DNA from: Dolichospermum flos-aquae CCAP 1403/13F
GTDB taxonomy: Bacteria; Cyanobacteriota; Cyanobacteriia; Cyanobacteriales; Nostocaceae
Reading direction: 5' to 3'
Assembly: GCF_012516395.1 (NCBI RefSeq)
Contig: NZ_CP051206.1
Coordinates: 3,082,501 to 3,146,500, forward strand
DNA length: 64,000 nt
The position numbers were made by a program, and so were the translations under genes. The notes below the pieces were generated by a model. The model saw only the letters and a program-made list of their open reading frames with translations. It searched no databases and had not been told where the DNA came from. Numbering within the stretch: the stretch's first letter is position 1; every line of letters starts with the position of its first letter. Below, in pieces: positions 48,493 through 53,985 of this stretch.

Positions 48493-49395
48493 TTAGTCAA
48501 AACCTAGTAGATCAAAAATTTCGCGATCCTTGAGGGGTTGAGCATACAAGGGTGTCGCATCTTCAAGCATCCCTTTCGCCAGCTTGAGATATTCTTGCTG
48601 TACTTCCAGAACCTCAGGATCAGGCTCCATTTCAAACACAGTACATTTTTTCAAACGACTGCGGCGAATTGCGTCAACAGTGCGGAAATGCGCCAAGGTT
48701 TTCAAGCCAACGCGATCGTTAAATTTGTCAATTTGATCGGTTCCTTCGCTACGGTTAGCGATGATGCCACCGAGGCGAACGCGATAGTTTTTCGCCTTCG
48801 ATTGGATGGCGGCGACAATGCGATTCATGGCGAAGATCGAGTCAAAATCGTTAGCAGTAACGATCAAGCAGTAATGAGCATGTTGCAAAGGAGCCGCAAA
48901 GCCACCACAAACCACGTCGCCAAGTACATCGAAAATCACAACATCGGTGTCTTCGAGCAAGTGATGTTCTTTGAGCAGCTTCACGGTTTGACCTGTGACA
49001 TAGCCACCACAGCCAGTACCTGCGGGAGGTCCACCAGCTTCAATGCACATTACGCCGTTATAACCTTCAAACATGAAGTCATCGGTTTGCAACTCTTCGG
49101 AATGGAAGTCAACGGTTTCGAGAACATCGATGACCGTGGGAACCATTCTTTTGGTGAGTGTAAAGGTGCTGTCATGCTTAGGATCGCAACCAATTTGCAA
49201 TACCCGTTTACCGAGGTGCGAGAATGCTGCGGATAGATTGGAGGATGTTGTCGATTTACCGATACCGCCTTTGCCATAAACGGCGATAACTAAAGCACCT
49301 TCAATTACCATTGATGGATCTTGGAATACCTGAACGCTACCTTCTGATTCTTCGCATTTGGTAACTGATGGTGGATGTGATGTTAAAACTGCCAA
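48493..49395 (-). CDS. chlL: Light-independent protochlorophyllide reductase, ATP-binding subunit L
   Basis: ChlL is the Fe-protein-like dimer that feeds electrons to ChlNB with ATP hydrolysis in the dark reduction of protochlorophyllide. P-loop [10 protein letters not shown] (about 40-49) and the cluster ligands Cys129 (PAGTGCGG) and Cys163 (GDVVCGGF) are intact; switch motifs are normal. The 300-residue length includes a 35-residue N-terminal extension ending [10 protein letters not shown], a hallmark of the proteobacterial/Prochlorococcus type; the usual cyanobacterial ChlL starts at the P-loop strand. The C-terminus ends [13 protein letters not shown], like BchL. It is last in the chlN-chlB-chlL series and shares the higher GC of these genes. 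Confidence 0.95.
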
Positions 49396-49454
49396 AATAG
49401 ACTCCTAATATAAATAATTTTTTTGCTCCCCATGGGGGCTGGGGGGTGAGGGTT

Positions 49455-51152
49455 TTACTTGCCGATCGCTGCTTTTGCTTCGTAGAGAGTTTCTGAAGTA
49501 ATCGAGGTGATCCCGCGATCGCTTGCAAATTTCTCGGTATTGCGCTTGATTTTGCCGCGGACAAAGAAGGGGATTTTCTTTAGCTCGGCTTCACCATCAG
49601 CACTCCAAGTGACTCCTTCCAGTGCTTCCGCTAGGGGCGTGAGAATAACTTGATCGGAATTATTGGAGAGAGTATTGGTGAGATTACTGATAGAGGCGAT
49701 CGCCTGTTCGGGAGATCTGGACTCTAGGGCGCGTGATTCTTGCGATGGGGCAGTATGCAGATGGCTCATGTGACCTTCGGCAAACTCGAAATCTTCCTTG
49801 AACATACCAATTAAATGTTCTTCCAGACCCATCATCAAGGGATGTACCCAGCTATCAAAAATCACATTCGCACCTTCCCAACCCATTTGGGGTGAGTAAC
49901 GCGCAGGCACATCTTGAACGTGAATCGGTGCAGAAATTACCGCGCAAGGGATACCCAAGCGTTTGGCAATATGTCGTTCCATCTGAGTGCCAAGCACTAG
50001 TTCTGGAGCAGCTTCGGCAACCTTGGCTTCGACAGCTAAATAGTCATCACTAATCACGGCTTCGAGTCCATGTTTCTTGGCAACTTCGCGGACTTCCCGC
50101 GCAAATTCACGGCTATAGGTTCCAATCCCGACAAGGGTAAAGCCTAATTCTTCCGTAGCAATTCTGGCGGCGGCGAGAGCGTGGGTGGCATCACCAAAGA
50201 TGAAAACGCGCTTACCTGTTAAATAGGTAGAGTCAACTGATCGCGAATACCAAGGAAGTCGAGAAGCATTAGGATTAGCGGCAGTAGAAATACGCGCTGC
50301 ATCCCAGTTTCCCAACGTGTCAGACTGCGATCGTGCTAGAGCGTCACTCACATCAATGTCCGCAACCTTGCCAATTTCGGCAATGAAATCACGGGTTGCA
50401 CTGACACCAATGGGAACGGTCTTGATCACAGGCTGTCCGAAACTACGGGTGAGCCAAGTACAAGTTGTCAGGGCAATTTCGGGATAGAGGCAAATATTAA
50501 AATCCGCATCAGGAATCCGCTTCAAGTCATCGGGAGTCGATCCCATCGGGGCGATCACATTTACATCTACGCCGATCTCAGCAAGTAACTTCACGACTTC
50601 GCGAATATCGTCACGACAACGAAATCCTAGCGCTGTGGGACCAATGATGTTCGCTTGAGGACGAATCTGGGGATCGCGTTTAGGTCTTGGTGTATTCGGT
50701 GGCGGAACCACAGGTAATAGTAGCGTGCGGACTAGGTGATACAGCGTTTCACTAGCGCCCCAATTTTCCTTTTTGGAATAGGCAGGTAATTCCAAACTCA
50801 CGACGGGGATCGGCAATCCCATGCTCTTTGCTAATGAGCCTGGTTGATCTTGAATCAGTTCGGCAGTACAGCTTTCACCAACTAGCATTACTTGGGGCTT
50901 AAAGCGATCGTAAGCGTCGCGAACCGAAGTCTTAACCATTTCGGCAGTGTCACCGCCAAGATCGCGAGCCTGAAAAGTCGTATAGGTGACAGGCGGCCGG
51001 CGATCGCGTCTTTCGATCATCGTAAATAGTAAGTCAGCATAGGTGTCGCCCTGGGGCGCATGAAGCACATAATGTACTCCTTCCATTGCTGTCGCGATTC
51101 GCATTGCCCCGACATGGGGAGGACCTTCGTAAGTCCAGAGAGTTAGTTCCAT
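49455..51152 (-). CDS. chlB: Light-independent protochlorophyllide reductase subunit B
   Basis: ChlB forms the catalytic tetramer with ChlN. The 565-residue protein keeps Asp36 ([12 protein letters not shown]), the unusual oxygen-side ligand of the shared [4Fe-4S] cluster, and [11 protein letters not shown]. The N-terminus [20 protein letters not shown] and [13 protein letters not shown] are of the Prochlorococcus/BchB type; the ordinary cyanobacterial form begins MKLAYWMYAGPAHIG and differs throughout. The C-terminus ([20 protein letters not shown]) is the usual DPOR-type helix bundle. It is 59 bases upstream of chlL and is separated from chlN by an IS605 element. Confidence 0.94.
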
Positions 51153-52640: not shown

Positions 52641-52692
52641 GTTATTTTATAAAAAAATCAATAAGAATATAGAGTGCTTCGCGCTCTATTTC

Positions 52693-53985
52693 TTAGACTG
52701 TTAATCTTCTACGTCTCTCAAGCGGACGCGCAAACAACTCGGCTAAATCGGCGGCTTGGTCGTAACCGTGAATCGGTGAAAATACCAACTCGATTGACCA
52801 TTTTGTCGCCATCCCTTCAGCTTCGAGAGGATTGGCTAAGCCAAGCCCACAGACTGTGATATCGGGTTTCGCCTCACGACAGCGATCAAGTTGCTTTTCC
52901 ACATCCTGACCTTCTGATAAAGCTGTCCCAACTGGCAACAGGTTAATTTCGCTGTCCATCAATAGGCGATCGATATAAGGTGTGCCAACTTCGACTAGCT
53001 CCATGCCACATTCTCTCGATAAGAAACGGGCTAAAGGTATTTCTAATTGTGAGTCGGGAAATAGGAAAGCCTTGCGACCTGTCAGGGTTTGACGATAGCG
53101 GTCTAAGGCAACTTTGCCACGACTAGCGGCGGGGGCGATGGCCTGTTCAAATTTATCGGGATCAACATTGAAAGCATCGGCGGCGGTTTTTAACCAAGCA
53201 GTCGTCCCTTCGATCCCAAAAGGATAGGGCGATGGTAATAATGTCCCACCACGCGAAATCAGCGATCGCACGGTATCGCTTAAAAATGGTTGGGCTAATA
53301 ATAATTTCGTACCTTTACCGATGGGGGGCAAATCAGCAGCACGGCGCGGCGGGAAGAAATAAACGGGACCCATCCCCATTTTGTCAAATAGCCTTTGGAA
53401 TTGGTCTTCTACTACATCTGCGAGGCTACCAACCACCATCAGGCTTGGTTCATCGCTGTGGGGCAGTACGGGAACCATCGATCCCAAACAGGCATCTTCG
53501 CCTTGGGTAAAGGTGGTTTCGATGCCACTACCTGAATAATTAAGAATCCGAACTTTAGGAAAAAATCTCTGGTTGAGTCGTTCCGCAGCTTTGGCAAGAT
53601 CGAGCTTAATTACTTCAGAGGGACATGATCCCACTAAAAATAATGTGCCAATGTCAGGGCGGCGCTCTAGTAACTGATCAACAACACGGTCTAATTCGTC
53701 ATTAGCATCCGCGAGTCCTGCCAAATCCCGTTCACCGAGAATGGCTGTACCAAATCTTGGCTCCGCAAAAATCATTACGCCAGCCGCAGATTGGATCAAA
53801 TGGGCGCAGGTACGCGATCCCACCACCAGAAAAAAAGCATCCTGCATTTTGCGGTGCAGCCAGACAATACCTGTCAAGCCACAAAATACCTCTCTCTGTC
53901 CTCGTTCTTTGAGTACGGGGATATCAGCGATAGCTTTGGGACTATATGTTTGAATAGGAACTTCCGTGCAAGGCTCTAGAGCCAT
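52693..53985 (-). CDS. chlN: Light-independent protochlorophyllide reductase subunit N
   Basis: ChlN binds protochlorophyllide and, with ChlB, forms the catalytic part of DPOR. Cluster ligands are Cys35 ([10 protein letters not shown]), Cys60 ([10 protein letters not shown]) and Cys121 ([13 protein letters not shown]). The sequence ([54 protein letters not shown]) matches BchN and Prochlorococcus ChlN closely. The protein has 430 residues with an N-terminal extension of about 30 residues. It is first in the chlN-(IS)-chlB-chlL order. Its DNA is more GC-rich than the neighbouring mnmA gene. As the first gene it probably carries the operon promoter. Confidence 0.95.

Follow-up and report, generated by a model that had tools for sequence, protein, structure and literature searches.

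Probable acquisition of a Pseudanabaena-like operon for dark protochlorophyllide reduction by Dolichospermum flos-aquae, with relics of the native genes

The operon and its insertion site

Dark-operative protochlorophyllide oxidoreductase (DPOR) is a core enzyme of chlorophyll synthesis and is sensitive to oxygen. It reduces protochlorophyllide in the dark, with an L-protein dimer that binds ATP, docks on the NB protein and passes electrons (in part of PMC7948495). Genes for all three subunits are found in the stretch of DNA analysed here, a 64,000-nucleotide window from Dolichospermum flos-aquae CCAP 1403/13F (contig NZ_CP051206.1, positions 3,082,501 to 3,146,500 of the forward strand). Read along the minus strand, chlN (52693-53985) encodes a BchN-like subunit of 430 amino acids, chlB (49455-51152) a BchB-like subunit of 565 amino acids with Asp36 and a C-terminal PCP_red domain (PF08369, residues 516-560), and chlL (48493-49395), which begins with TTG, a BchL-like ATPase of 300 amino acids with an N-terminal extension. 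Each product exceeds the cut-off of its family: ChlN scores 508.3 bits with TIGR01279 (cut-off 419.95), ChlB 606.2 bits with TIGR01278 (490.35) and ChlL 439.8 bits with TIGR01281 (345.15). A mere 59 bp separate chlB from chlL.

The best PDB match for all three subunits is the Prochlorococcus marinus enzyme 2YNM. ChlB reaches 776.9 bits with 2YNM_D versus 327.3 with the native-type 2XDQ_B, and ChlN 596.6 bits with 2YNM_C versus 250.6 with 2XDQ_A. The residues that we take to be the iron-sulphur ligands (ChlL Cys129 and Cys163, ChlN Cys35, Cys60 and Cys121, ChlB Asp36) are all in place, as a first-pass annotation of this DNA had listed them, and align with the same residues in 2YNM. Two Cys of each L subunit and three of N are given as ligands in part of PMC7948495. 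The same annotation had read a ChlL with an EGSVQV extension and the C-terminal end EIFDLLGFD, a ChlB N-terminus [17 protein letters not shown] and a ChlN motif [13 protein letters not shown], all of which are seen in the translations. By sequence alignment, the Rhodobacter-type BchNBL proteins (3AEK, 6UYK, 8VQI) belong to the same families. The native cyanobacterial DPOR (2XDQ; congeners G146, G148 and G073) catalyses the same reaction by family but differs from the window enzyme: ChlB identity is 33-35%, ChlL has no extension, and chlL, a DUF5331 gene and chlN lie side by side, chlB being located elsewhere. The contrast drawn earlier with this native type, in which ChlL starts at the P-loop, ChlB begins MKLAYWMY and the loci are split, is borne out against these three congeners, as the window has none of these features.

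The three genes had been described as one block in the order chlN-chlB-chlL. The order stands, but the block is broken by an overlooked TnpB gene, and the minus strand reads chlN-tnpB-chlB-chlL. The gene (open reading frame, ORF, 51294-52556) belongs to an IS200/IS605-like TnpB element with approximate borders at 51161-52642 on the minus strand. Its product passes NF040570 (241.8 bits) and, with 196.7 bits, stays below the cut-off of 425 of the IS200-specific NF038281. No ORF of at least 80 amino acids lies between tnpB and either chlN or chlB. Homology to Pseudanabaena breaks off at about 52642-52694 and restarts at 51153-51160, around the element, and none of eight aligned Pseudanabaena loci carries a TnpB gene between chlN and chlB. 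A second copy with 85% identity lies in the window at 2832-4074, so the element is probably of host stock and would have landed between chlN and chlB after the operon had arrived.

The operon is flanked by an arsS-like radical-SAM gene, which ends at 48248, and by mnmA at 54329-55384. Alignment to congeners sets the outer limits of the inserted block at 48275-54265. On the left, host homology ends at 48274 (48258 in L201); on the right, it is back at 54266 in L197, L199 and L200, via a 39-bp match, and at about 54331-54339 in L198 and L201. Of the 15 other genomes of the genus, eight carry arsS and mnmA on a single contig at a distance of 1.3-6.3 kb. Five of these eight site regions were aligned; they contain no insert, and no DPOR gene is present between arsS and mnmA.

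Within the block, homology to Pseudanabaena spans about 54217 to 48461, with a break at the TnpB element and lower similarity immediately upstream of chlN. It takes in a donor-like 3′ flank of chlL (48461-48492, minus strand), over which the alignment to L039, L040 and L238 runs on to about 48461. At the other end, a 77-bp region upstream of chlN (54141-54217, minus strand) is 88% identical to the same place in Pseudanabaena locus L039 and 81% in L208, and is conserved in the alignment with L039, L040, L208 and L041, the last only in part. Since Pseudanabaena has this region in common, the operon seems to have arrived with its own upstream control region. The region contains TATAGT and is a putative promoter; a sigma-70 scan gave 7 matches versus 9.1 in shuffled sequences, no excess, so promoter activity is only suggested. 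A terminator scan gave a slight excess, with 9 matches versus 6.1 (standard deviation 2.9). No transfer vehicle is indicated. One scan of viral contigs returned no relative, and the 11 plasmid records matched, at best 61.6% identical, were all proteobacterial, one weakly.

The composition of the three genes also sets them apart from their surroundings. Their GC content is 0.468-0.501 and their GC content at third codon positions (GC3) 0.429-0.454, above all 32 other window ORFs of at least 200 amino acids outside the block (GC3 mean 0.288, standard deviation 0.053, maximum 0.396). A higher GC than in neighbouring genes had been surmised from 50281-50340, where 32 of 60 bases are indeed G or C. 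Five Pseudanabaena loci have a GC3 of 0.36-0.44, and the operon keeps a Pseudanabaena-like GC3.

Source of the operon

Relatives were sought in samples of 145 genomes of the family, 388 of the order and 386 of the phylum; the named related loci discussed below are the best 80 of 582. Among these, the nearest copies are those of Pseudanabaena sp. ULC187bin1 and SR411, followed by Cyanobacteria bacterium M5B4, the uncultured cyanobacterium L042 and Phormidesmis priestleyi Ana. The last is filamentous, carries a proteobacteria-like ChlL according to part of PMC5165242, and has a ChlB 82% identical to that of the window; it falls outside the Pseudanabaena clade. Genus g108 is taken as Pseudanabaena because its copies L251 and L253 coincide with L039 and L040. 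The type occurs in 24 of its 26 genomes, the two without it being 76% and 82% complete. Across 24 Pseudanabaena rows set against the window, protein identity is 88-94% for chlN, 87-93% for chlB and 90-98% for chlL. The Pseudanabaena operon (L039, L040, L206, L242 and others) has the same gene order, the upstream block and mostly a TTG start for chlL, assigned in 23 of the 24 rows. Its host belongs to a different order, and neither arsS nor mnmA, which flank the operon in the window, was found in the L039 and L040 loci.

A tree of concatenated ChlN, ChlB and ChlL was built from 69 rows, comprising 66 of the 135 extracted purple-type rows and three native sets. All three native sets are from congeners (the ChlL of one, nat148, is partial, in two pieces in different frames), and Chlorobi, Chloroflexi and Heliobacteria are not represented. 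The window groups with 13 Pseudanabaena rows (support 98) inside a clade of 18 (99). The purple-type clade is split from the native sets with a support of 100, over a very long native outgroup branch, and one g108 copy, L258, clusters with M5B4 rather than with these rows. In concatenated trees of 31 rows, the window again lies among Pseudanabaena (94/97 for protein, 89/97 for DNA); L251, L253 and L259 are left out here as repeats of L039, L040 and L041, by equal lengths and identities, and L245 has a partial chlN. The signal is sharpest in chlL. In its DNA tree, the window is sister to L242/G787 (100/99), and the two chlL sequences, window and L242, are 98.3% identical in amino acids and 87.0% in nucleotides. 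No other of the 31 rows has their [10 protein letters not shown] form of the N-terminal motif. The approximately unbiased (AU) test rejects trees that unite the 23 Pseudanabaena rows to the exclusion of the window for chlL (p = 0.0052 for DNA, 0.0014 for protein) and for chlB DNA (0.026).

The operon had been assigned to a Prochlorococcus or purple-bacterial type. As a wide family this holds, with 2YNM the best PDB match; as the direct source it does not. Picocyanobacterial copies form a clade of their own (100), and the source is Pseudanabaena-like. A transfer straight from a purple bacterium, a Gemmatimonas-like bacterium or a marine picocyanobacterium is thus highly improbable, although all share the wide family and P. 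marinus provides the closest solved structure. Picocyanobacterial DPOR, that of P. marinus included, is BchNBL-like, has the ChlL extension and mostly follows the chlN-chlB-chlL order, as does the window; in three Prochlorococcus loci chlL is inverted and upstream. ChlB identity of such candidate sources, however, is 61-67%, or 65-74% for picocyanobacteria over the stretches matched in the phylum sample, compared with 84-93% for Pseudanabaena. Gene spacing points the same way. In all 32 Pseudomonadota-labelled loci with chlL covered, 3.6-4.0 kb lie between bchB and bchL, a gap that we take to hold bchH, and the same spacing is found in 39 of the 40 listed related loci that are not labelled cyanobacterial and include chlL, as against 59 bp in the window. 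The exception, with 235 bp, is L115, a metagenome locus titled Bosea, where bchN-bchB-bchL lack the gap of the other 39 (7671-7906). Composition does not argue against all of these sources, as Prochlorococcus locus L063 has a GC3 of 0.26-0.31, whereas two Gemmatimonas-like loci and one Cyanobium stand at 0.85-0.95 against 0.43-0.45 in the window. A direct purple or picocyanobacterial donor is rejected on the basis of trees, identity and gene spacing.

The type is rare around the host. A ChlB query found it in none of the 15 other genomes of the genus; native ChlB is present in 14 of them at 33-35% identity (that of G150 is a contig-edge partial), and native ChlN likewise in 14, G027 being the one without. 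In the family sample, 140 genomes pass TIGR01278, and the 139 others score 702-810 bits compared with 606 for the window copy; ten purple-type cyanobacterial genomes score 585-610. The order sample has the type in 4 of 388 genomes, the other three being of genus g248 in family f5. Across the phylum sample, it occurs in 61 of 386: the host, three genomes of g108 and, for the rest, family f25, whose copies group with named Synechococcus, Cyanobium and Prochlorococcus loci. In the genera neighbouring g108, native-type copies (E 1e-75 to 1e-80) occur in five genomes of g263, g264, g265 and g267, and none in a sixth genome, G777; matches in g261 and g266 are weaker, partial and native-like, or absent, and one of three g262 genomes, apparently M5B4, has the purple type. 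That several cyanobacterial groups hold the type would fit an ancient presence in the family followed by differential loss. Such vertical descent is nonetheless scarcely credible given the higher scores of the 139 others in the family sample, the absence from the 15 other genus genomes, a composition unlike that of the host and the nesting of chlL in Pseudanabaena.

Placement with Pseudanabaena, absence from 15 congeners, the five site regions without an insert and base composition all argue for the horizontal gain that the first-pass annotation had proposed. It had named in advance two outcomes that would speak against a gain, placement among Nostocales and uniform composition; the trees and GC3 gave neither. 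Contamination or misassembly could also have brought Pseudanabaena DNA into the assembly, the more so as Pseudanabaena is often attached to bloom cyanobacteria. This too is very improbable: the operon is flanked by host genes at either end within a contig of 5.15 Mb, the TnpB element inside it has its second copy elsewhere in the window, the closest Pseudanabaena copy sampled for each gene is 13-16% divergent in DNA, and this assembly also contains the broken native genes. We are highly confident in reading the locus as a complete, probably working DPOR that was gained as one operon from a Pseudanabaena-like cyanobacterium, entered the arsS-mnmA region and replaced the native enzyme.

Several observations weigh against this reading or blur its details. 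The nesting constraint is not significant for chlB protein (AU p = 0.173), chlN (0.079 DNA, 0.195 protein) or the concatenated sets (0.087 protein, 0.072 DNA), so that for chlN and chlB the donor may have been a sister lineage of the sampled Pseudanabaena. The best DNA identity to Pseudanabaena is 84-87% by gene, with no near-identical donor known, and synonymous divergence is about 1. The ratio of nonsynonymous to synonymous divergence (dN/dS) against Pseudanabaena, about 0.04, indicates conserved proteins but measures mostly the donor history and not the host branch alone. ChlB scores 894 bits with NF002790 (PRK02910.1-4), its best NCBIfam model, 18 below the cut-off of 912, and is therefore filed by tree and TIGR01278. 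Finally, the TnpB insertion may cut expression of chlB and chlL.

Fate of the native genes

The host genome (G000; 5.22 Mb, 99.96% complete) holds one ChlL over the cut-off, one full ChlB and one full ChlN, all of them the window copies. Of the native set, a chlB piece and a chlL piece remain, and native chlN was not found in this genome. The light-dependent enzyme (LPOR) is present. The earlier suggestion of a gain "replacing or adding to" the native DPOR can thus be narrowed to replacement, because the search of the same, nearly complete genome for a second native set gave only relics. As judged from sequence, all three DPOR subunits are replaced and LPOR is retained.

The chlB piece corresponds to native codons 393-508 (116 codons) and lies at 2.019 Mb of G000:C1 (L191 9421-9771, complement) as an open frame with the PCP_red domain. 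Compared with three congeners, it shows 0 amino-acid changes and 12-17 silent codon differences. By a rough estimate, a piece free of constraint since the split from G146 should have gathered about 24 amino-acid changes on the host side; the native gene was therefore cut during approximately the most recent tenth of that period, or constraint continues. The remnant may be either a relic or a small protein. Small stand-alone ORFs matching the PCP_red end of ChlB occur in several congeners.

The chlL piece consists of the last 41 native codons (248-288) at 2.361 Mb, adjoining an intact DUF5331 ORF. About 1.25 kb, comprising the rest of chlL and its upstream sequence, are gone. This tail has 10 amino-acid-changing and 4 silent codon differences; between two intact congeners, the same tail has 4 changing and 5 silent. 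The DUF5331 gene (L265 7547-8329) is intact although native chlL is broken and chlN gone beside it. In congener G148, native chlL (L203 12733-11869) is in two overlapping pieces in different frames, owing to a frameshift or a sequencing error.

The order of events is less firmly read than the exchange itself. Native DPOR might have been lost first, with a phase of LPOR-only life before DPOR was regained. Loss alone can be survived, as judged from congener G027, which has a broken chlB, no chlN and no replacement found, and the 10 changing against 4 silent differences of the chlL relic also lean towards this order. These changes say little, however, because the tail varies between intact congeners too, and the unchanged chlB relic restricts unconstrained time to about a tenth, roughly, of that since the congener split. 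Loss before gain is accordingly the less likely order, though one that deserves serious weight, and gain before loss of the native genes is the order we favour.

In G027 the remains are a chlB fragment with a stop (L195 4420-4788, G027:C56), and LPOR is kept. DPOR was lost there on its own branch. G000 and G027, which are not sisters, both have two protease-like genes upstream of and beside the broken chlB (L191 11337-13224; L195 1613-3515); such genes were not found between chlB and murF in G146, G148, G073 and G099, the genomes in which both genes were matched. A loss shared by the two is disfavoured. The mnmA+arsS tree joins G027 with G073 (100/100) and G000 with G146, G148, G151 and G137 (99/99), and all five of these relatives have native copies. 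Four further family genomes, G013, G019, G021 and G069, lack a full chlB, as G027 does, which indicates that DPOR loss recurs in the family; these four also keep LPOR.

Enzyme gating, significance and other features

In the proposed history, the chlN-chlB-chlL operon and its upstream region would have entered the arsS-mnmA intergenic region from a Pseudanabaena-like donor, and the foreign DPOR would have taken over while the native genes decayed to relics. In the cell, ChlL would bind ATP and hand electrons to ChlN-ChlB, turning protochlorophyllide into chlorophyllide without light, with LPOR kept for the light-driven route. Dark protochlorophyllide reduction by the window enzyme is probable, and expression across the TnpB element is presumed.

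The N-terminus of Rhodobacter BchL is flexible, lies over the cluster and is autoinhibitory; activity rises in a Ser17 mutant and in an Asp13/Glu15/Ser17/Gln19 mutant. With the exception of P. marinus, cyanobacterial ChlL does not conserve this stretch (all from PMC7948495). The window ChlL has ESEGSVQVF in place of DGEGSVQVH, so that the motif is present but not exact: of the four substituted residues, Glu15, Ser17 and Gln19 are retained, and Asp13 is replaced by Glu. By analogy, the extension may gate the enzyme as in Rhodobacter. Since the ChlL of congeners starts at the P-loop without an extension, the exchange would have brought a different likely mode of gating to the host cell. A bolder proposal combines two ideas, namely that the 116-codon native ChlB piece with PCP_red was kept as a stand-alone protein, perhaps aiding the foreign enzyme, and that the swap, by bringing in a ChlL whose extension shields the iron-sulphur cluster as long as ATP is not bound, gave an ATP-gated DPOR and was not neutral. 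We regard this combination as doubtful.

Purple-type DPOR has been noted before outside the purple bacteria. Unicellular, mainly marine cyanobacteria and Phormidesmis priestleyi Ana-like reads are described as having a proteobacteria-like ChlL in part of PMC5165242 (citing Gupta 2012), and transfers from proteobacteria to picocyanobacteria are cited in part of PMC7947762 (Sousa 2013). In the titles and abstracts that searches of an open-licence library brought up, neither Pseudanabaena nor any heterocystous cyanobacterium is reported to have a purple-type DPOR, which is not proof of absence, and the parts of PMC4500134, PMC9600594 and PMC12587747 consulted contain nothing on the present transfer. 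The case appears to be a recent and readable swap of a core photosynthesis enzyme, whose donor group, insertion site and upstream region can still be traced, along with the cast-off native genes. It suggests that purple-type DPOR moves between cyanobacterial orders and not just from proteobacteria to picocyanobacteria, and that ChlL, ChlB and ChlN trees do not track cyanobacterial ancestry. It also provides a natural setting in which to ask whether gating of the BchL kind benefits an oxygen-evolving cell that probably forms heterocysts.

The host nifH is in three pieces (L269 4691-4813 and 17815-18081; L270 6446-6826; G000:C1:412690-434726) separated by about 13 kb and 8.3 kb. A recombinase-like ORF, with a serine-recombinase-like N-terminus as judged by eye, lies just before the second piece, and the arrangement suggests that one gene is interrupted by two elements of the developmentally excised kind. 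By analogy, a three-piece nifH points to a nitrogen-fixing heterocyst former. Elsewhere in the window, two small overlapping ORFs at 56809-57409 resemble a toxin-antitoxin pair by eye, and the cyanobacterial small RNA Yfr1 is matched at 44149-44213 with 63 bits, upstream of a gene that by eye is thioredoxin-like.

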